From the NCBI RefSeq assembly GCF_024496245.1, contig NZ_CP101740.1, forward strand, positions 2,045,501 through 2,109,500: 64,000 nt of DNA. The letters run 5' to 3'. The stretch comes from Sphingomonas qomolangmaensis. GTDB taxonomy: Bacteria > Pseudomonadota > Alphaproteobacteria > Sphingomonadales > Sphingomonadaceae. The position numbers and the translations under genes are program-made. Positions within the stretch are counted from its first letter, which is position 1, and each line of letters opens with the position of its first letter. Under the pieces are notes generated by a model. It was not told where the DNA came from. It did no database searches and worked only from the letters and a program-made list of their open reading frames with translations. Of this stretch, positions 10,652-21,063 are shown piece by piece.

Positions 10652-10727
<76 letters not shown>

Positions 10728-10844
10728 AGCTTCGCCCCATCGGCACCACCTGGCATTGCCACAGCGCCAACCGGGCACCCACAATCGGTCACGAATCGTC
10801 GACCGGACGATCACCCATGCGCGGCTGCTGAACCGCCGGCGCCC

Positions 10845-11696
10845 TCAGCCGAACAACCCCCGCAATGCATTGTTGATAACCGCCTGGAAGCTCGAACGGA
10901 TATTGGGCGAATTAAGCGTGTCCGAGATCTGGCCGATCATCGACTGTTTGGTGCCCTTGTCCTCGAATATCTGCTGCGCGGTCTTGCTATAGGTATCGCG
11001 CCACGTCGGATCGCCGATCGAATAGATGACGACGGCGACCGACAGGTCGGCCGGATCGGCGGCGAAGCTCAGCTGGTTTACCGTCACCACCAGCGTCGAC
11101 CCGTCGGGCGAAACCGTTGCGCTCGCCTGCGCGGTCGCCTTGGCTTTCGCGAAGGTGGCGATGAAGGTTCCCTCGCCATGCGGTGCATATTGCGTACCGA
11201 TCAGACAGGTCGTGCCGTCCTCGCTCTGGCAGCAACGCTGGTCGATCGAAAAATTACCCTGAATTTGGAACGACTTGATCGGCCAGGTCCCGATCGTGCC
11301 GAGCGTCGCCCCCGCCGAGATATTGTCGCCATCGGTGACCACCGGTGGGTCGGCAAGCATGTTCGATATGCCCACCAGCTGGAACGGAATCGCCTGCGGA
11401 AAGCTCACGCCGCTGATAGACGCCAGGTTGAGGATCGGTATCGCGCCGTCCGCCGGGATGCCGAAGCTGGTCTTGCTGGGCGGCGACGTGCCGGCGCAAA
11501 TCATCTGCGCCCCGGTCACCGCCTGCGGCCCGATCTTCAGATCGGGCCAGCCGCCGTCGATCACATAGGGCTCGACGACCGGGTTGCTCTGCTGCTGCAC
11601 CAGCTTGGGCAGATAATAGTCCGAAGTGGGATCGGTCGTCTTCTTGTAGAAGGTCGAGAGGAAGAACTGGAGAATCGGATCGGGCGATGCGGTCAT
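10845..11696 (-). CDS. Unknown protein, last gene of six-gene cluster
   Basis: A 283-residue protein of unknown function with no signal peptide or membrane helix. It starts with an amphipathic helix (DPILQFFLSTFYKK), then YYLP, a long beta-rich middle with many Gly/Ser/Thr, three Cys close together (RCCQSEDGTTC), a strand pair SATVSPDGSTLVVTVNQL, and a C-terminal helix ending INNALRGLFG. The YYLP...PDL start and the IN-x-AL end resemble the first gene of the cluster (19210-20622), so the two may be distant paralogues. ATG 11696 has GAGGAA about 8 bases upstream and lies 16 bases after the polyprenyl synthase stop. Confidence 0.75.
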   Translation of the reverse strand: MTASPDPILQFFLSTFYKKTTDPTSDYYLPKLVQQQSNPVVEPYVIDGGWPDLKIGPQAVTGAQMICAGTSPPSKTSFGIPADGAIPILNLASISGVSFPQAIPFQLVGISNMLADPPVVTDGDNISAGATLGTIGTWPIKSFQIQGNFSIDQRCCQSEDGTTCLIGTQYAPHGEGTFIATFAKAKATAQASATVSPDGSTLVVTVNQLSFAADPADLSVAVVIYSIGDPTWRDTYSKTAQQIFEDKGTKQSMIGQISDTLNSPNIRSSFQAVINNALRGLFG

Positions 11697-11712
11697 CGAT
11701 GGGGTTCCTCGA

Positions 11713-12765
11713 TCAAGCCACGGCGCGATCGGCGGCGGGCTGGTTTGGAGAGGCCAGGAAAGGACGATCGACCACATGATAGGCGATCGCCTCGGCGGCA
11801 TCGCGATGCGGACCGGCGGGCACCAGGTTGAGCTGACCGATGGCGAGTATGGTATAGGAGCGCGCGAGGGCATAGGCGCGCATCAACCCGGCGGAATCGG
11901 TGACCGCACGCGCCGCCGCGGCGATCGATTCGGCATCGGTGCTTTCGCCGCGCACCACGCAGTGCAAGACATGATCGGGCTCGAACTCGGGCAGCGCTAA
12001 GATGATCGGCAGCGTCATCCGCTGCGCCAGCAAATCGGCATGGGCGCCCTTCCCCGCCAGCGCCTCGGGATGCACGAAATCGAGCACGTCATCCATGATC
12101 TGGAATGCCCGCCCGACGTTCCAGCCGAACTGGCTGATCGCATAGATCGTGCGCTCCCCTGCATCGGCGAGCGTCGCTCCCGCCTCGCACGCAAAGCCAA
12201 AAAGCGTCGCGGTCTTGCGATCGATCGTGCGGAAATACCGCATCCGCAGTTCGTCGATCGAACGCGTCGGATCGATGTCGAGCTCGTCGAGTTCGCCGCA
12301 GCACAGCTTGAACCCGACATCGAGCACGTGGTTGACCAATTGCATGTCGCGCTGGGTTTCGACGCTCGCGGCAAACACGCGGATCGCCTGGACGAACTGC
12401 AGATCGCCGATGAGAATCGCGGTCTTGGTCCCGCGCGCGGCAGCCGTCGACGGCGCCCCGCGGCGCTGCGCCGCCTCGTCGATGATGTCGTCGTGGATCA
12501 GCGTGGCGGTGTGCAGCATCTCAAGCGAGACCGCGGCCTGGACCGCCTTGGCGGGCAACGGCGCATCTTCCTGCGCGCTGCACATGCGCGCCGACAGCAG
12601 CAACAGCAACGGGCGCAGCTTCTTGCCCCCGCGATAGGTCGCGCGCTCGATCTCGGTCAGGTAGCGGCGCTGGGGGTGCAGCGCGTCGAGCAGCCCCGCG
12701 TCGAAGCGCGCGCGCTCGCCCCCCAGCAGCGACCAAGCGTCGCTCAACGGATCGCGCGCGTTCAC
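11713..12765 (-). CDS. Long-chain polyprenyl diphosphate synthase
   Basis: A 350-residue trans-prenyltransferase that adds isopentenyl units to an allylic diphosphate. Seen are GGKKLRP near residue 47, the first Asp-rich motif DDIIDE at 92-97 followed by RRG, KTATLFGFACE, and the second Asp-rich motif DDVLD at 225-229. Just before the first motif it reads LHTATLIH, like IspB-type synthases, with a small residue five places upstream rather than Phe or Tyr; this points to a long product. The GTG start overlaps the stop of the 1345-aa gene by four bases (GTGA), so the two are translationally coupled. Its placement inside a cluster of unknown genes, not by ubiquinone genes, is unusual. Confidence 0.9.
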   Translation of the reverse strand: MNARDPLSDAWSLLGGERARFDAGLLDALHPQRRYLTEIERATYRGGKKLRPLLLLLSARMCSAQEDAPLPAKAVQAAVSLEMLHTATLIHDDIIDEAAQRRGAPSTAAARGTKTAILIGDLQFVQAIRVFAASVETQRDMQLVNHVLDVGFKLCCGELDELDIDPTRSIDELRMRYFRTIDRKTATLFGFACEAGATLADAGERTIYAISQFGWNVGRAFQIMDDVLDFVHPEALAGKGAHADLLAQRMTLPIILALPEFEPDHVLHCVVRGESTDAESIAAAARAVTDSAGLMRAYALARSYTILAIGQLNLVPAGPHRDAAEAIAYHVVDRPFLASPNQPAADRAVA

Positions 12766-15700
12766 GCCGCGAGCAGTTCGAGCGCGAGGGCATATTCGCG
12801 ATCGACATACGGCGCGGCAATGGCGAGCATCGTATCGATCGACGTGACCGATTCGGGCGAGGCGTTGGGCCGAATCGCCGCAAGTCGATCACCGAGCTCG
12901 CGGAGCGGATGATCGGCGTCCTTGGTGGCCGGCAGAACGCGGTTGCGGCCTTCGATCGTGATCAGCCGGACGATCTCGTGCTGGTGGAGATAATAGTGGA
13001 ACAACAATTCGCGTCCGCCGGGCAGCGCCGCCATGTCGAACAGCGCCTGGCGCCAGCGTAGCTCATACGCCACGGCGAGCCGCAAGCCATCGTCGCGCTG
13101 GCGGTCTCCCTCTGCGCCCCGCGACGTCGCCTGCATCAGCGGTGCAGCCCCTTGCATCGCGCAGCCCTTCGCAGCGGCCCAAATGTCATCGAGCGCCTTC
13201 GCAACCGCGGCCGCGGTCTTGCCGAACGCTTCGGCGATCGCATTGCACGCATCCTCGAACGTCTTGCCGAGCTGCTTGAACACCTGCCCGATCTGCTCGA
13301 TCGAAGCGTCGAACGCGGCCTTCATCGCCTTGGCCGCAGCGACCAGATCGTTGCCGAACGCGATCAAACCCGAAGCGATCGCGGCAGCGAAATTTTCCAG
13401 CGACGACAGGATGTTAGCGTATAGCAATTTGACGTTGTTCTTCAGCCAGGTCGCGATCGCATCCCACAGATTGCCGATCGCGTGGGTTATGTCGGCTAGG
13501 GTGAGGGTGAAGTTGGGGGTGAAGTTCTGCCCGGCATAGCCGAACGACAGCCCGATCGAAAAGGAACCGCCAACCGGGCTCAGCGCGAGCCCCGCCCCCA
13601 GCGTCAGTCCCGCCGCAACCCCCGGAATATGGATCGCGGGGATCACCGTAATGCCGGCGATCTTGTAGGCCGGCAGGTCGATCTTCAGCGAGAAGCCGAA
13701 CTTCGCCGATGCGGCTAGGCTCATCTTGGCCATGCTCAGGTGGCAGCTCAGCTGCTCGGTCATCCCCAGGAAGGTAAAGTCATATTCGAAGTCGAGCGTA
13801 TCGCGGCTCGCCTTCAGATAGACCTTGTCCTGGATCGCGCCGCCGAGCAGCTTCACATTGCCCGACAGCTCGAGATAGGTCGCAGCCTCGCCCGCCAGCA
13901 ACGGTCGCCGATCGACGGCGGGAAGCGTCGCCAGGTCGTGCGCCAGCGCGAGCGTCGAGACGGATGAGTCGCGGTGGAGCGTGCTGAAGCGCGGGGCATC
14001 GCGCGCCACCAGCGCCACGCCGCTGGTAAATGCCGCGGTGTCGACCAGGAACGACGGCCCCTTGGTCCCCTGGAAGTCCGAGATCACGAGCAGGTCATCG
14101 CCCAGCTTGATCGGCAAATTCACATTGCCCATCGCATATACGCCGCGATCCTGATTGACCGCGACGTCGACGATCACTTCCCAGTCGTAGAACAGCACGT
14201 CGGCCTTCACCTGGATGCCCGGCTGGAAGCTTTGATTGCCGATCTTGAAGCCGTTGGGATCGTCGACGATGTAGAGATCGATCGTCTTGAACGCGATCCC
14301 GTTGAGGACCGGCACGCTCGAAAGGTCGAGCGTCGTGAATTCGGTGATGAGGTCGGTGAGCTTGAGCGCCTGATCGCTGGCGTCGAGCCCAAACAGCAGC
14401 GCGCCGGGCACTTCGAAATCGATGATCGACGCGCCGATCGTGAAGGTGAACTGGCGCGGCGCGGTGCCGATCACGAAGCTGCCGAGCATGCCGATCGTCA
14501 CGCCGGTCCCGCCGATGACGACCGTAACGCCGGCATTGGCGACCGTCAGCCCCGCGATGCCGAACGGATTGGGCCAATTCTCCACCGCGAGGTCGAATGC
14601 GACCGCGGGCGGCTCGAGCTTGATGCTGCCCTGCCCCGCGATGACGAGCGTTTCGCCGCCGATCTTGAGCGCGGCGGCGGCGATGAGGTCGAACTCGGCC
14701 GCGCCGGGCTTGAGCACCACCGCCAGTTCCTTGAAGGTGAAATCCTTGTTCACCTCGAACGAGGGCAGCGAGGCCTTGATCAGCGACTTGGCCGGCGTGG
14801 TCGAGTCGATCTGCGCGACGAGGTTGAGCGTCACGTCGGCGGTGAAGAGCTTCTTGAGCAGGTCGAGCCCATCGCCCTTGAGCTGCAGCGTCGTGAACGC
14901 GGTGACGCCGGCGGGGAGCGGCGTCGGCACCGGCATCGTGAGGTTGGGCAGCGTCAGCTTGTCCGCCGCGATCGTCGAAACGATCAACCCGGTGTTGCGG
15001 AAGCTCAGCCCGCTGAACAAGTCGGCCAACGGCGGGAACAGGTCGCCCGGCGACCACGCCTCGGGAACCGCGAAACCGACGACGAAGCCGGTCGACTTGG
15101 CGGTGCGGCGAACCTCGAAAAAGCCCGAGCCCAGGTCATGGCCGTTCGCGGTCGCGGTAGCGGACAGCATGAAATCATACATCTTGCCGCCGTCGCTCGC
15201 CACGAGCCACTGCGCCGCGCGCGTCACCGGCGCGCGCTGCTCGTTGGCGATCGTCAAACTGGCCTGCGCGTGGGTGATCGTCACCACCGGCAGCCCGCTC
15301 GGCGTGCTGGTGCCGGTCAGCTTGCTGCCGAGCTCGGTCAGGTTGATGTCGGGGAACTTGCCGGTGAGCGTGAATTGCTCGTGGAGGTTCCAGGTCGCGT
15401 CGAAATCGATGTCGGCAACGGTAGCGGTCGCCGATATCGTCCCCGTCGTCGCGCCGCCATTATGCTCGAGCTGCGCCGACGCGCCGGTGAGCGCGACCGA
15501 GGTGAAGCCGAGCGGCAAGGTCCAGTTGCCCGACAGCGACGTATCGAAATACCAGTCGAGCGAGGGAACGGTGATCCCCAGATCGAGCCCATCGAGGTCG
15601 AGCGTCGCGGGGATGTCGACGCTCAGGAAATAGTCGATCACGTCGTTGATATGGACGACCGAGCCCTCGCGCAGCGCCGCATACAGCGTACCGGTGAGCC

Positions 15701-16799
15701 CCGACGATGTCTTGGCGATCGCCACCCCCACGCCCAGCGTGCCGCCCGGCCAACTGGCCGTCGCCTCGACCGATGCCAGGACCTGGAGCGCGCCGAGCGG
15801 ATCGAGCACCGCGAACGACATCCGCCCGCCGGTCAACGTCACCCCGCGAATGATCGGCCAATCGCCCGATACCGCCGCCTGCACCGCGATCGAGACGATC
15901 TTCTGCTGCACGGGATTGAGCTGGAAGCTCAAGCCCGCGACCGCATTGATCCCGGGAAAGCCGCTATCGCTCGGCACATAGGAGGCGAGATCGGCACCGC
16001 CCGCCAGGCTGCCCAGATCGGCAAGCGCGAGATTGGCGGCGCCGCTCAGATCTGCCTCGATCGCCACCACCGATTTGGGTGTCGACAGATCGATGAAGAT
16101 CGGAACCTTCTTGCGCTTGATCGTCACATTGGCGGCCAGCCCGATCGTCACCTTGGCCGCGGTTTGCGCGGCGCCCTGATGATCGTACCAGGTCATCGCC
16201 GATGAAGCGATCTGGAACGCCGGGGTCAACGTGCCGAGCGGTTCGAGACTGACCTGCGCGATGTCGGCCTGCAGCGTGAACACCGGCACGTTGCCGCTCA
16301 TCGCGATCGGCCCCTTCAGCGCGAAGCTGAAAATATTGCCGAGCAGCCAGCCGATCACGCCGATATCGCCGTTGAATTTGGCGGTGGTCGCGAGCGTGAG
16401 CGCGCTGGCCGCCGGCGCGGTGGTCGATAGCACCAGCGTGACGTCCGAATAGTCGAGTTCGGTGAGCACCGAGCCGCCGAGCTGATCGAAGGCGGTGTCG
16501 AACCGCCAGGCCGACGGCGCGGTGGCGGTCAACAGCAGCTGGACCTCGCTCCCCGATCCGTCGAACACCGCGGTGACGGAGGTGTCGGCGAACGGCGCGA
16601 CGCTGCCCTTGCCCCGAACGGTGACGTCCTGGGTGCCGGGCGTGAGCTTGGCATCGACGATGTCGAGCGTCGCGCCCTTCGGCAGATAGGCCCCAAGCGT
16701 TTTGGCGATGGCCCCCGCGCCGAAGGCACCGACCGGCAGCTTGAGCGTGCCGCCGTCGATGTGCGGCTGAAGGATGGCTTCGATGTCCTGCGGGCTCAC
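12762..16799 (-). CDS. Giant beta-rich protein of unknown function
   Basis: A 1345-residue protein that I could not assign to a family. Residues 1 to about 1100 consist of repeated blocks of alternating polar/hydrophobic strands rich in Gly, Ala, Thr and Leu, with phrases such as LTLPNLTMPVP and FTFTIGASIIDF, suggesting long amphipathic sheets. Residues about 1100-1215 form an Ala-rich amphipathic helical stretch (AAKAMKAAFDASIEQIGQ), and a helical tail follows to the end. There is no signal peptide, Cys cluster or membrane anchor. The GTG start has a perfect AGGAGG eight bases upstream, lying across the stop of the preceding gene. A structural or lipid-binding role is possible but unproven. 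Confidence 0.8.
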   Translation of the reverse strand: MSPQDIEAILQPHIDGGTLKLPVGAFGAGAIAKTLGAYLPKGATLDIVDAKLTPGTQDVTVRGKGSVAPFADTSVTAVFDGSGSEVQLLLTATAPSAWRFDTAFDQLGGSVLTELDYSDVTLVLSTTAPAASALTLATTAKFNGDIGVIGWLLGNIFSFALKGPIAMSGNVPVFTLQADIAQVSLEPLGTLTPAFQIASSAMTWYDHQGAAQTAAKVTIGLAANVTIKRKKVPIFIDLSTPKSVVAIEADLSGAANLALADLGSLAGGADLASYVPSDSGFPGINAVAGLSFQLNPVQQKIVSIAVQAAVSGDWPIIRGVTLTGGRMSFAVLDPLGALQVLASVEATASWPGGTLGVGVAIAKTSSGLTGTLYAALREGSVVHINDVIDYFLSVDIPATLDLDGLDLGITVPSLDWYFDTSLSGNWTLPLGFTSVALTGASAQLEHNGGATTGTISATATVADIDFDATWNLHEQFTLTGKFPDINLTELGSKLTGTSTPSGLPVVTITHAQASLTIANEQRAPVTRAAQWLVASDGGKMYDFMLSATATANGHDLGSGFFEVRRTAKSTGFVVGFAVPEAWSPGDLFPPLADLFSGLSFRNTGLIVSTIAADKLTLPNLTMPVPTPLPAGVTAFTTLQLKGDGLDLLKKLFTADVTLNLVAQIDSTTPAKSLIKASLPSFEVNKDFTFKELAVVLKPGAAEFDLIAAAALKIGGETLVIAGQGSIKLEPPAVAFDLAVENWPNPFGIAGLTVANAGVTVVIGGTGVTIGMLGSFVIGTAPRQFTFTIGASIIDFEVPGALLFGLDASDQALKLTDLITEFTTLDLSSVPVLNGIAFKTIDLYIVDDPNGFKIGNQSFQPGIQVKADVLFYDWEVIVDVAVNQDRGVYAMGNVNLPIKLGDDLLVISDFQGTKGPSFLVDTAAFTSGVALVARDAPRFSTLHRDSSVSTLALAHDLATLPAVDRRPLLAGEAATYLELSGNVKLLGGAIQDKVYLKASRDTLDFEYDFTFLGMTEQLSCHLSMAKMSLAASAKFGFSLKIDLPAYKIAGITVIPAIHIPGVAAGLTLGAGLALSPVGGSFSIGLSFGYAGQNFTPNFTLTLADITHAIGNLWDAIATWLKNNVKLLYANILSSLENFAAAIASGLIAFGNDLVAAAKAMKAAFDASIEQIGQVFKQLGKTFEDACNAIAEAFGKTAAAVAKALDDIWAAAKGCAMQGAAPLMQATSRGAEGDRQRDDGLRLAVAYELRWRQALFDMAALPGGRELLFHYYLHQHEIVRLITIEGRNRVLPATKDADHPLRELGDRLAAIRPNASPESVTSIDTMLAIAAPYVDREYALALELLAA

Positions 16800-16809
16800 G
16801 GTCGACCTC

Positions 16810-17853
16810 CTAGATCGTTACGTCCGCCCAGACGGGCAGATGATCGCTGACAGCGTTGCGGTAGAAGATGTAGGCATAGGGCGCGCTCTGGAGCCATTTG
16901 TTCATCGGATAGCCGAGCATCGAAGCGTGCGGGAATTGCTCCGAACCGTCCTTCTGGGTGATGAATTTCTGGGCGAAGCGGCTCGGGCCCGAGCCGGTAT
17001 CCATCAGGATGCCCAACGCATCGACCACCCCGCCCCGCGTCGCCGCGGGACGGCAGAAGAGGTTGTCGAGGCAATTGTCCTTCTGGACGTACCAGGCGGG
17101 ATCGGCGTGCCAATTGCGCGGATCGTCGCCCCATGCCTTGGTCACTTCGGCCCACGTGGCGAGGATGGTCGGGTCACCCACCGCGGCGACCGAACCGGCG
17201 CCCTGCCCTGCCGTGGTGGGGGGCGGCGGCACCGGCACCGGATCGGTGAGCCAGGCATAGAGGTCGGCGTTGAGCGGTAGCGGCATGTTGTAATCGCCGC
17301 CCATCACCCGCGAATTGGTGTTGAGCACCCCCGTGCCACCGGGATTGATGCTGTAGATTTCGGGCATCTGGCCGAGCCGCTTGACCCCCAGCGAGGTGTT
17401 GCCGCTGGGCGGCGCATGATAGCTGGTCGCGACGAACACGGTGTTGGTGTCGGTGGTGCGGAAATAGACATAAGCGGGGCGCCGCCCGCCCTTGGTAAGG
17501 TCCTTAGTCGGAAAATCGCCCGATGCGATGCCAAAGCCGTTGGCGATCGGCGCGAACTTCGCGTCCTGGCTCTGGAACAGGATCGCGTAGGATTCGCGAT
17601 CCTTCTCGGGCCGCGTCTGCAGGACGATGTAGCGCCATTGCTTGCCCGTCGCGATCGCGCAGGTTTCGGCGGCGGTGAACGCCACCGCTTCGGCGATCGA
17701 CGTCATCAGTTCCTGGAGCAGCACCACTTGCGCCCCGGTGTGCGCGATCATCGCGCCGACCAGATAGGCGAGGTTCGCGTTGTTGGCCGACTGACCGTAT
17801 TTCTTCGGTCCATAGACCTGGATGTTCCAAGATAAAAATCGGATCGTCGCCAT
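16810..17853 (-). CDS. Endonuclease/exonuclease/phosphatase-fold enzyme
   Basis: A 347-residue member of the DNase I-like superfamily, which cleaves phosphoesters in nucleic acids, inositol phosphates or sphingolipids. The catalytic set looks complete: SWNIQ with N10, LLQE with E48, SYHAPP with H147, GGDYNMP with D188 and N190, and SDH near the C-terminus with D337 and H338. A Pro/Gly-rich loop near residues 205-225 (VPVPPPPTTAGQGAG) is unusual. No signal peptide is seen, so it is probably cytoplasmic unless exported another way. ATG 17853 starts the conserved fold (MATIRFLSWN); the longer frame to 18210 is antisense noise from the neighbour. The next gene starts 10 bases on. Confidence 0.85.
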   Translation of the reverse strand: MATIRFLSWNIQVYGPKKYGQSANNANLAYLVGAMIAHTGAQVVLLQELMTSIAEAVAFTAAETCAIATGKQWRYIVLQTRPEKDRESYAILFQSQDAKFAPIANGFGIASGDFPTKDLTKGGRRPAYVYFRTTDTNTVFVATSYHAPPSGNTSLGVKRLGQMPEIYSINPGGTGVLNTNSRVMGGDYNMPLPLNADLYAWLTDPVPVPPPPTTAGQGAGSVAAVGDPTILATWAEVTKAWGDDPRNWHADPAWYVQKDNCLDNLFCRPAATRGGVVDALGILMDTGSGPSRFAQKFITQKDGSEQFPHASMLGYPMNKWLQSAPYAYIFYRNAVSDHLPVWADVTI

Positions 17854-17899
17854 GCACGCCCCCCCCAAGACCGTCGCCTGCAAACCGCGCCTGCGCGCG

Positions 17900-19183
17900 C
17901 TATGATGCCGCCAGGTTGCCGCCGAGGATGATGACCCCGCCGCCGCCGCCGGTGCTGGTGAGCCACGGCGTGATCGTGATCGAGGTGCCGCCGATCGGCT
18001 GGGTGATCGCCGGAATGTTGAGCGTCGCGAAGTTGATCCCGCCGAGATAGCCGAGGATCTGCGGCTTGAGCGCGTTGGCGATCGACGAGAGCAGCCAATT
18101 GACCATCCAGCCGACCAGCTTGCCCACCGACCCGCTGAGGTTGACGTCGATGTTGAAGTCCTGTGCATGATCGCTGACGATCGACACGCTGTTGCCGCGC
18201 GGGATGACATTGGCGATCAGCGTGGGATTGGGGCTGGTGCCGATGTCGACGCCGATGCCGATATCGACCCAGAACACCTCGGCGCCCGCGCCGGCCGACC
18301 CCGCCACCGAAAAGGCCGCCGCGATCTGGTTGCCCTGCGCCTGGACCTGCGGGTTCACCGCGCGAAACGAGTAGTTGTAGTGGACGCTGAAGCCGCTGCC
18401 GCCGCTCGAATCGCCGCCGTTGAGCGCTACGCCGTTGCCGATCGCGGCCTGCGCGGCGGCCTGCAATGCGGCATTGTCGAGCGACACGAAGAAGGGCTGG
18501 CCAAGCCCCGGCACCGGCTGGGTCGGCACCGGCGGTTGGCCGCCGTTGACGTTGGCGACCGCAAGCAAGCTACCGTTGACGATACCCACGCTGAACGGGC
18601 TGACCGGCACGCCCGGGATCGACGGGATCGCGAACGATACGCCGTCCAGCGCCTGCTGGATGATCTGGTTCATCTTGGGCTGGATGAACTTGGTGGTGAG
18701 CCATTGCTGGAACGGCGTTCCCCCCGAGGTGACCGCGGTGGAAATCACGTTGAAGCCGATCTTGCCGCCCGACGAGGTGAGCGTGGCCTGCGTCACCGAC
18801 GACACCGTCATCGGCGCGCTTTCGGGGCCCGAACTGAAGGTGATCACGATCGGGTTGAGCGTGATCGTGAGGCCGGGGGCGTCGGCGAGCAACGCCGCGA
18901 CGGTTTCTGCATGGTCCTGGGGGACGAACTCGGCATTGGCGTTGGCGAATTCGGGATGGCTTGCCGCCGCCGCGAGCACCGCTTGTGCGGCCGATTCGAG
19001 GTGCAGCCCGGCCGAAAGATTTACCAGCGGCGGCGCGCCGATGTCGTAGTTGAGGTTTACCGTCGTGCCCTGGAAATCGAGCGAGGCATTGCCCTGGAAG
19101 AGCTGCGCGTGGGTCTTGGTGTAGACGCTGGCAAGTATCTGATTCAGCTGGTCCTGGCTGATGCCCAGGCAAACATCGTTCAT
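17900..19183 (-). CDS. Unknown protein, possible TULIP/BPI-like fold
   Basis: A 427-residue protein without signal peptide or membrane helix. The start (NDVCLGISQDQLNQILASVY) has a strand-then-helix pattern like the opening of TULIP-superfamily proteins such as clostridial P47, which bind lipids in a long groove. It continues with beta strands, an amphipathic helix (KFIQPKMNQIIQQALDGV near residue 165), more strands with Gly-rich turns, a second helix (WMVNWLLSSIANALKPQI near residue 365), and a Gly-rich end. The TULIP assignment rests on this pattern only. ATG 19183 is preceded by a G-run about 8 bases upstream. Upstream gene ends 26 bases before; downstream gene begins 46 bases after. Confidence 0.75.
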   Translation of the reverse strand: MNDVCLGISQDQLNQILASVYTKTHAQLFQGNASLDFQGTTVNLNYDIGAPPLVNLSAGLHLESAAQAVLAAAASHPEFANANAEFVPQDHAETVAALLADAPGLTITLNPIVITFSSGPESAPMTVSSVTQATLTSSGGKIGFNVISTAVTSGGTPFQQWLTTKFIQPKMNQIIQQALDGVSFAIPSIPGVPVSPFSVGIVNGSLLAVANVNGGQPPVPTQPVPGLGQPFFVSLDNAALQAAAQAAIGNGVALNGGDSSGGSGFSVHYNYSFRAVNPQVQAQGNQIAAAFSVAGSAGAGAEVFWVDIGIGVDIGTSPNPTLIANVIPRGNSVSIVSDHAQDFNIDVNLSGSVGKLVGWMVNWLLSSIANALKPQILGYLGGINFATLNIPAITQPIGGTSITITPWLTSTGGGGGVIILGGNLAAS

Positions 19184-19209
19184 AACGGTACCCCCCGAAT
19201 AATATGCGG

Positions 19210-20622
19210 TCAGAAGTCTCCCAAGGCCTTGTTGATCGCATCGTTGATGCGATTGCTGAGATAGGTCAGGACAGTGGGATCGCCGAGCTTGTCGCCCAGC
19301 TTGCTGCGGATGAGATCGTGGACGAAGCCCGCATTGGCGAGCGCCTGGGTGACCTTGTCGTAGAGGTTGGGATAGGGCCAGTTACCGCCGCTGCTGAGCG
19401 AGATGGCGATGTTCGGCAGGGTCGCGGTCAGCTTGGTGAGCGTCACCGTGAGCTGCGGGTTGTTCGGGTCGCCGGTGACCGCGACGGTGCCGGTGATCAC
19501 CACGTCGGGCACCGGAAAGGTATCGGTGAAGGTTCCCGATCCGATCGGCATGTCGCCGCCCAGCGCGGCCAGCTCGGAAAAGAGCCGGTTGGGTCCGTCG
19601 CTTTGCTCGTAGTCGCGGATGAAAGCCTGCGCCTCTTCGTGCGCCTGGATATAGACTTGGCGCGCCGCCTCGTCGCGGAAGGCGCCGACGGGGGCGATGT
19701 CGGTCGATTCCTGCAGCGACGCCGCCAGCAAATGGCTGCGCAGCGCGCCGGCGGGGGTGGACGACACCTCGGTCATCACCTTGCCCACCGTCACCGGCCC
19801 GGTGTAGCTGGCGTTCACCACGCCCTTGAACGACAGCGTCGCCTTGGCGGCATCGGCGAAGGGATCGTCGGCGCCATTGCCCCCCGCATTCTGGCAGGCG
19901 CGCTCGAAGATCACCTGGCGGATCATCGAGCTCGCATAATAAGCGGTGTCGCCGACGGTCTTGGTGGGATCGTCGGGCGCCGCCGCCGCCACCGAGGTCT
20001 GGTCGGCCAAGCCCGCCGAGGTCGGACGGTTCTGGCTCATGTAGCTGGTGAAGACGTTCTGGCCGCGGACGACCTCGTTCATCGCCCAGTTGTTGTCGTA
20101 ATATTGACCGACCATCTCGAGCCCCGCGGGGGTCTGGACCAGCTGGTCGCGATAGTCGCGCGCTTGCTGGAGCCGCGCGTCGCCGTCGCCGTCGCCCAAC
20201 GCCGACGCCCCAACCTGCAGCCCGGGGATGATCTTCATCAGCCCGCTCGCCCCCGCCGCCGCACAGCCGAGCAGACCGTTGCCCGTCACCGCGTACTTGC
20301 CCGCGTACGACAGCCCCTGCCACCGGATGATCGCGGTGAAGACCTGGCTGGTCTCGTCATAGGTGAACCCGCCGTTCGCGGCAGTCCCGAGCCCGCCGAT
20401 GCTGGCACCGCTCAGGCCCAGATTGACCTCGCCGAAGGTCGAATCGCCGAACAGGCCGAAGGGACCGAGATCGGGGACCGGGCGATTCCCCAAGGGCGGA
20501 ACCGTATGCCCGTCGCCCGAAGCACCGTCGACCAGCACGGTAGGCAGATAATAGGGCGTGCCTTGCTTCCACAAGAGATTCCACGCCTGCTTGAGCAAAA
20601 ACGCCGCAACCCCTCCAGCCAT
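19210..20622 (-). CDS. Unknown protein, first gene of six-gene cluster
   Basis: A 470-residue protein that I did not recognise. A short hydrophobic N-terminus (GGVAAFLLKQAWNLLW) could insert in a membrane but lacks a cleavage site. It is followed by YYLPTVLVDG, a Gly-rich beta region, a helical middle (about residues 150-345) with many Gln, Asp and Ala, then a strand region (LTVTLTKLTATLPNIAI) and a C-terminal helix ending INDAINKALGDF. Start and end resemble the 283-residue last gene of the cluster, with an extra helical domain inserted here. ATG 20622 has AGGGGG nearby; a GTG at 20625 directly before it is the alternative. Confidence 0.75.
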   Translation of the reverse strand: MAGGVAAFLLKQAWNLLWKQGTPYYLPTVLVDGASGDGHTVPPLGNRPVPDLGPFGLFGDSTFGEVNLGLSGASIGGLGTAANGGFTYDETSQVFTAIIRWQGLSYAGKYAVTGNGLLGCAAAGASGLMKIIPGLQVGASALGDGDGDARLQQARDYRDQLVQTPAGLEMVGQYYDNNWAMNEVVRGQNVFTSYMSQNRPTSAGLADQTSVAAAAPDDPTKTVGDTAYYASSMIRQVIFERACQNAGGNGADDPFADAAKATLSFKGVVNASYTGPVTVGKVMTEVSSTPAGALRSHLLAASLQESTDIAPVGAFRDEAARQVYIQAHEEAQAFIRDYEQSDGPNRLFSELAALGGDMPIGSGTFTDTFPVPDVVITGTVAVTGDPNNPQLTVTLTKLTATLPNIAISLSSGGNWPYPNLYDKVTQALANAGFVHDLIRSKLGDKLGDPTVLTYLSNRINDAINKALGDF

Positions 20623-21063
20623 CACCGCCCCCTATCTATTCACCGCCGCTTGCCAGAACGCTCCAGACTAAAGCAAGCGCACTTGCCCACTAGATACGCG
20701 CGCATCTGAATATCGCACATCTAGGGATATCAATCGCAACCCTTGATGTGAATAGACAGTTGCAGCCATATAGTCGGTATAATGCGTGATTAACCTTCAA
20801 GAAAAGACGACGCATTTCCATTAGTCTTCGGCTTGGCAAGTATCATATATCGCCATTCTGAACTGCATCTTGATTTTGGGCACAATATAGGATCCCGCAT
20901 GCAAGCGGCACCGATGCCCGACGCGATCGCCGATCTGCGATCTTCCCGGCGTGGCAGCGCCCTGCGTTCGACGGTCGCCAAGCCGCGCGGCGGGCGATAC
21001 GGTCGCGGTCGGGCCGCACCGATAGGCGAGGCCCCCATGATCTAACCGTCCGAAGGGGAACAG
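20623..21063. promoter_or_regulatory. A/T-richer divergent control region
   Basis: These 441 bases separate the six-gene cluster from the divergent arabinofuranosidase and are clearly richer in A and T than the flanking genes, notably 20690-20890. An inverted pair CTATTCAC (20636-20643) and GTGAATAG (20748-20755) flanks the cluster-side half; one arm sits just upstream of the first gene start. A TAGACA (20753-20758) and TATAAT (20778-20783) with a 19-base spacer could be a plus-strand promoter. No convincing gene is present; short frames such as the one at 20833 look like noise. Confidence 0.5.
20753..20783 (+). promoter_or_regulatory. Candidate sigma70-type promoter
   Basis: TAGACA at 20753-20758 and TATAAT at 20778-20783 match the -35 and -10 consensus well but are 19 bases apart, slightly long. 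The predicted transcript would have a leader of about 270 bases before the arabinofuranosidase start. Confidence 0.3.

Follow-up and report, generated by a model that had tools for sequence, protein, structure and literature searches.

What could bring together, in one row of genes, a prenyl synthase, an enzyme with a phosphoesterase fold, a protein of giant size and three further proteins of unfamiliar sequence? The question is raised by a block of six open reading frames (ORFs), g1 to g6, which ORF calling places on the minus strand at positions 10845-20622 of a 64,000-nucleotide stretch of the Sphingomonas qomolangmaensis genome (contig NZ_CP101740.1, positions 2,045,501 to 2,109,500; the whole stretch is called the window here, and the genome, of 3.43 Mb in a single contig, G000). 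A first-pass annotation, made from the window's sequence, had read the block as a module that makes a prenyl diphosphate and then binds, moves or modifies it. Our sequence comparisons support the view that the six genes are one conserved, operon-like module, and we tentatively propose a lipid-related role for it.

Conservation and rarity of the block

The six genes point in one direction and are separated, from g1 to g6, by 26, 46, 10, -4 and 16 bases, exactly as the first-pass annotation had stated; the gaps are too small to hold further genes. In the nearest genome (G091) all six are present in identical order, and the ratio of nonsynonymous to synonymous substitution rates (dN/dS) between G000 and G091 is 0.12-0.26 for all six (two genomes only; dS 0.06-0.11; g3 from codon 10). 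By this measure, all six genes are under purifying selection. The order g1-g2-g3-g4-g5 is also that of G775, a metagenome-assembled genome (JANSWW010000003.1) from another order of Alphaproteobacteria and the sole genome of its order in the set compared. There the row begins with a 539-aa (amino acid) protein whose C-terminal half is g6-like (residues 266-529, 27% identity to g6 over 281 columns), followed by g1 (31%), g2 (28%), g3 (38%), g4 (30%) and g5 (47%), and the overlap of g4 and g5 is present in both the window and G775. Because G775 keeps the gene order, a chance cluster is ruled out, and the worry voiced in the first-pass annotation, that these genes might never co-occur elsewhere, is laid to rest by G091 and G775 together. 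Relatives of g3 and g4 are adjacent in all four loci with a g3 relative, namely in the window, G091, G775 and the Sphingomonas genome G626; the stretch fetched from G626 contains only these two, the other four genes being absent. The nearest named relatives of g2 (96% identical) and g4 (98% identical) come from Sphingomonas sp. S1-29. Among database relatives, those of g2 and g4 agree in the length of the longest contig of their genomes (10437 and 6716 bases), as do those of g2 and g6 (54576 bases), which suggests that they lie on shared contigs.

The block is rare. The g4 profile matched 7 of 385 genomes of the class, with full-length matches in three (G000, G091 and G775), and gave 4 matches among 7999 scored candidates. 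Relatives of g2 were found 6 times among 8000 scored candidates and in 2 of 397 genomes of the family, and those of g6 4 times among 729, including one match at 99% identity. Within the genus (295 genomes) g4 was matched at E<=0.001 in five genomes, of which two have a full-length match (the window's own and one at 97%), two a distant one (G626 and G649) and one a weak local one, while g3 was matched in seven: two closely (own and 97%), G626 at 31%, and four weakly (G422, G468, G469 and G537), these last not being counted as relatives on account of their internal stops. A match in G572 (9e-4) was likewise not counted for g4, as its fetched surroundings contain no giant. The g3 alignment scanned against 84,980 species genomes, a set that may leave out genomes near the window's own, gave 34 pattern matches and a single relative, that of G775; no relative of g2 was found in viral contigs (32 pattern matches) or plasmids. 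A first contig scan with two short g2 patterns returned 18 pattern matches and no relatives and missed G775, hence such scans under-count.

At its 3' end the block adjoins a tRNA-Lys(ttt) gene predicted with ARAGORN (10652-10727, plus strand). A query from the left flank was matched in all 121 genus genomes searched, in some partially. With G000 and G091 left out, 26 of the 28 top-scoring genomes with loci have an alignment that ends at query positions 1288-1300, corresponding to window 10727-10739 and thus to the tRNA-Lys 3' end. No continuing match past this end was found in the three genomes fetched, with short scattered matches only elsewhere, and in G514 close similarity to the window resumes at ~27254, to the right of the block. 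Since synteny stops at the tRNA and close similarity resumes in G514 at that point, the sequence from 10728 to ~27250 looks like a lineage-specific stretch. A second copy of the tRNA-Lys end was not found in the window, nor is any of its named ORFs an integrase (no search was aimed at integrases), and we do not claim a tRNA-linked island. The same stretch also holds genes for a 1039-aa arabinofuranosidase/lamin-tail-domain protein and a PAS-GGDEF-EAL protein. The GC content at third codon positions of the six genes (0.82-0.89) is near that of six neighbouring ORFs (0.64-0.87), so by this criterion the block is not foreign-looking. Scans for promoters and terminators gave no more matches than in shuffled sequence.

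Predicted folds and activities

Gene g5 (11713-12765, minus strand; 350 aa) is the only one of the six with a Pfam match over the cut-off (polyprenyl_synt, PF00348, 9.8e-54). It carries, besides the domain, both Asp-rich motifs of the trans-polyprenyl diphosphate synthases intact (HTATLIHDDIID and FQIMDDVLDF), and the first of them is preceded by a pattern of small residues, as in long-chain synthases. The residue pattern at this site predicts chain length in such enzymes, and for this reason the product of g5 is predicted to be a long-chain polyprenyl diphosphate; the motifs and the pattern together fit the earlier call of a long-chain synthase. The enzyme appears to be accessory: there are three PF00348 genes in G000 and three in G091, and two in each of G626, G649, G514 and G413, genomes of the genus without the block. 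In a tree of 17 of the 18 PF00348 matches (one G775 paralogue, L081, is missing) g5 of G000, G091 and G775 form their own clade with support 100/99, G775 g5 being on a long branch. On truncated alignment rows the window and G775 copies are 45% identical (47% in the comparison of the two blocks), and both are 25-32% identical to the remaining PF00348 proteins.

The putative lipid carrier of the block is g2 (17900-19183, minus strand; 427 aa). Structure searches with its model, which is of moderate confidence (predicted local distance difference test score 72.2), return lists headed by BPI, LBP, CETP, P47 and OrfX entries, and the predicted fold, a helix wrapped by a highly curved beta-sheet, is that of a two-lobed TULIP protein of the BPI/CETP/P47 type. 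A TULIP-like opening had been noted before; the model extends the predicted fold over most of the g2 length. TULIP proteins from bacteria are described in PMC6791001, PMC5507252 names juvenile hormone and isoprenoids as ligands of some TULIPs (JHBP and takeout), and PMC11009388 reports beta-carotene bound by one takeout-type member.

Gene g1 (19210 to 20622 or 20625, minus strand; 470 aa from the ATG at 20622 or 471 aa from the GTG at 20625) and gene g6 (10845-11696, minus strand; 283 aa, no assigned family) have a common C-terminal region of ~110 residues. The two window proteins are 23% identical over 92 columns (E 0.002), and G775 g1 aligns both with window g6 (28% over 110 columns, E 4e-5) and with window g1 (31% over 470 columns).

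Gene g3 (16810-17853, minus strand; 347 aa) encodes a predicted EEP-fold enzyme. Searches with single g3 sequences found nothing relevant, while a profile of three sequences (window, G775 and G626) matched DNase I (8.9e-7), all five PDB sequences listed at E<=1 being DNase I or gamma. The NCBIfam names point the same way, with MnuA nucleases for g3 (2.9e-8, below threshold) and nucleases, again below the cut-off, for G775 g3. Residues N10, E48, H146, D187, N189, D263, D337 and H338 are invariant in the three aligned sequences and make up the set Asn, Glu, His, Asp-x-Asn, Asp, Asp-His of EEP/DNase I enzymes, which we take to be catalytic here as well. We infer from these similarities that g3 may cleave nucleic acids. 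The EEP phosphoesterase of the first-pass annotation thus keeps its fold and catalytic set, but the profile resembles DNase I and not lipid phosphatases, and the idea that g3 modifies a prenyl diphosphate is therefore left without direct support.

The largest gene, g4 (12762-16799, minus strand; 1345 aa), encodes a beta-rich repeat protein with a helical C-terminal part. A repeat hidden Markov model (HMM) of 84 positions, iterated on the same 9 giants in which it has 25 matches, finds the unit in g4 at residues 418-495 and 737-822, and the unit recurs at corresponding places across g4-like giants. A single unit from P0014, a 1435-aa remote relative from the cable bacterium Candidatus Electrothrix laxa with five unit matches and a long helical region, matches window g4 at 413-515 (2.4e-8; the lowest value from 50 shuffles was 0.52). 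Among giants unseen by the HMM, L089 gave a best match of 1.2e-6, whereas the L090 value of 0.0064 does not improve on that of the top-scoring shuffle (0.0046). The g4 model (residues 1-1130) reaches a predicted TM-score of only 0.40 and has no Foldseek match at E<=0.001 in PDB or BFVD, and g4 has no secure fold; a lipid bridge with a repeating beta-groove is hinted at only by the strand-helix periodicity in this poor model and is not adopted here. An outer-membrane barrel (VIA best Z 8.7) was not used, as the match falls in a low-confidence stretch, and PHROG matches to a phage tail protein (1.9e-5 and 0.0021), limited to the helical residues 1095-1212, are taken as a helical-repeat artefact.

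More distant giants differ in their surroundings (in one search for distant giants, three of seven matches were on the helical tail only and were not counted). Those of G626 (L009:5520-12769) and G649 (L010:1-6917) are 22-29% identical to g4, and their tails carry 18 and 15 HxD motifs, respectively, versus 1 in g4. In G626, where a g3 relative precedes the giant, genes for an HxD-repeat peptide, a radical SAM protein and a peptide hydroxylase-type HExxH protein (TIGR04267, 2e-18) follow it, and similar genes were seen by eye beside the G649 giant; tails and neighbours look like modification of the giant protein's tail of the type known for ribosomally synthesised and post-translationally modified peptides. 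Metallo-beta-lactamase-type genes occur in the vicinity of the G730 and G712 giants (L060 and L061) and, by eye, of the one in G1289 (L089). The genes downstream of the L089:5673-13862 and L090:7463-14550 giants (501 and 667 aa) are alike by eye.

None of the six proteins has a strongly hydrophobic stretch, the top 19-residue Kyte-Doolittle means being 1.42-1.80 (hydropathy only, no signal-peptide predictor). No PADLOC model matched any of them at E<=0.01, and a known anti-phage defence system was set aside on this basis.

Possible roles of the block

We tentatively favour, as a possible reading, that the six genes form a single operon encoding a soluble complex for handling lipids, in which the nuclease works with a lipid-loaded carrier on a giant scaffold. 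The g5 enzyme would make a dedicated long-chain polyprenyl diphosphate, and g2, perhaps aided by g1 and g6, would hold this chain or a derived lipid in its groove, whether cytoplasmic or extracellular. The scaffold would be the giant g4, to which these proteins as well as g3 attach, and the nuclease might act together with the loaded carrier, for example by being placed at or across a membrane. The g5 product as TULIP ligand, the scaffolding by g4, the cutting of nucleic acids by g3 and the single complex are inferred. Several observations weigh against such a complex. Direct evidence linking the g5 product to g2 is lacking, and we know of no logic that would put a nuclease beside a prenyl synthase. 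The g2 model was built on 7 sequences and its Foldseek TM-scores are modest (LBP 0.28, BPI 0.53). No secure fold can be given to g1 or g6: profile comparisons between each pair of g2, g4 and g6 gave no match, and a sequence search of PDB with G775 g1 returned no TULIP. The g6 relative of G775 has another place in the row and is longer, and that genome has four PF00348 genes, so that extra prenyl synthases are not tied to the block alone. No g3 relative was found beside the G649 giant or elsewhere in that genome, and in G091 (L008:8727-9860) the reading frame of g3 is broken at its 5' end in comparison with the window copy, with the SWN motif out of frame; an active g3 may therefore be dispensable, unless this is a sequence error.

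The same parts could be arranged differently. The block might be an orfX-p47-like cluster with g3 or g4 as effector, g1, g2 and g6 as accessory proteins and g5 supplying a lipid for membrane docking, which we regard as rather doubtful. OrfX and P47 proteins are not known to have signal peptides, and P47 and OrfX are among the structural matches of g2; BPI ranks above P47, however, and a common fold proves no function. Pfam reports no family for g2 (E<=1) or G775 g2 (E<=0.5), so that g2 lacks a P47-family match in sequence, and no literature joining orfX, p47 and prenyl was found in the open-access literature. According to PMC7020563, orfX-p47 clusters mostly adjoin toxin genes, while orphan clusters beside hypothetical genes exist, and an association with toxins is therefore not obligatory; no recognised toxin family was found (Pfam, NCBIfam) among the six or in 7 other window ORFs scanned. 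It is unlikely that the block is instead a prenyl pathway proper, with g3 as a lipid phosphoesterase, not a nuclease, that strips a phosphate or head group and with the TULIPs and g4 carrying the product. The EEP class does include lipid phosphatases and sphingomyelinases, and g3, which adjoins g4 wherever it was found, lies upstream of g5 in three of the four loci, but the PDB and NCBIfam matches of g3 are to nucleases. Of the prenyl module proposed at first, the conserved unit, the synthase g5 and the predicted TULIP g2 are supported, and the diphosphate-modifying role of g3 is weakened.

The pair g3-g4, found without the other four genes in G626, could also be an independent enzyme-giant unit that on one occasion became attached to a TULIP-prenyl module unrelated to it, so that the six would not form one machine; the metallo-beta-lactamase-type neighbours of the distant giants in G730, G712 and, by eye, G1289 would fit this. 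We consider it quite improbable, as two orders retain the entire set, with identities of 27-47%, and g4 overlaps g5 in both. With equally little expectation, we speculate that the products form a lipoprotein-like bacterial particle, in which g4 and TULIPs loaded with a custom polyprenyl lipid carry the DNase I-like enzyme; such a machine would be antagonistic or protective and have no described counterpart. If the lipid link of the soluble complex is true, the block would be a bacterial operon that pairs a TULIP carrier with the enzyme making its ligand, and the ligands of bacterial TULIPs would become directly testable.

Comparison with known systems

No description of a combined TULIP, prenyl synthase, DNase I-like enzyme and giant was found in the open-access literature (subscription papers lay outside the search). 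The orfX-p47 clusters of clostridia and other bacteria resemble the block in their clustered TULIP genes, the predicted P47 fold of g2 and the scattered distribution; the block differs in having neither a Pfam match for g2 nor a toxin family recognised among its six genes, and it adds the prenyl synthase, the DNase I-like enzyme and the giant. From the two-lobed TULIPs BPI, CETP and LBP, g2 is set apart by 11% identity, bacterial origin, an operon setting and no signal peptide seen. The JHBP/takeout TULIPs share with the block the isoprenoid type of ligand and a weak match of G775 g1 to Pfam JHBP (PF06585, 1.7e-5), which at 24.5 bits is below the cut-off of 29.2; window g1 has no Pfam match at E<=1. 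The best NCBIfam match of g5 is the Family 2 encapsulin cargo polyprenyl transferase (NF041169), but with 179 bits against a cut-off of 450 bits, and none of the six genes encodes a shell protein (no search of the whole genome was aimed at encapsulins). The repeat region of g4 is remotely similar to that of DUF6603-type giants (hhalign probability 88.7, E 2.6e-6, 186 columns, A8 versus A13), and two remote giants, of G1289 and G1136, do have a DUF6603 match; PF20248 (DUF6603) over the cut-off is absent in g4, P0012, P0013, G775 g4 and the G626 giant. Through g4 the block is linked to a larger set of repeat giants about which little is known, and of which some carry DUF6603. What is new is the gene system, which falls outside the definitions of its nearest kin, while the folds and families of its parts are already known.

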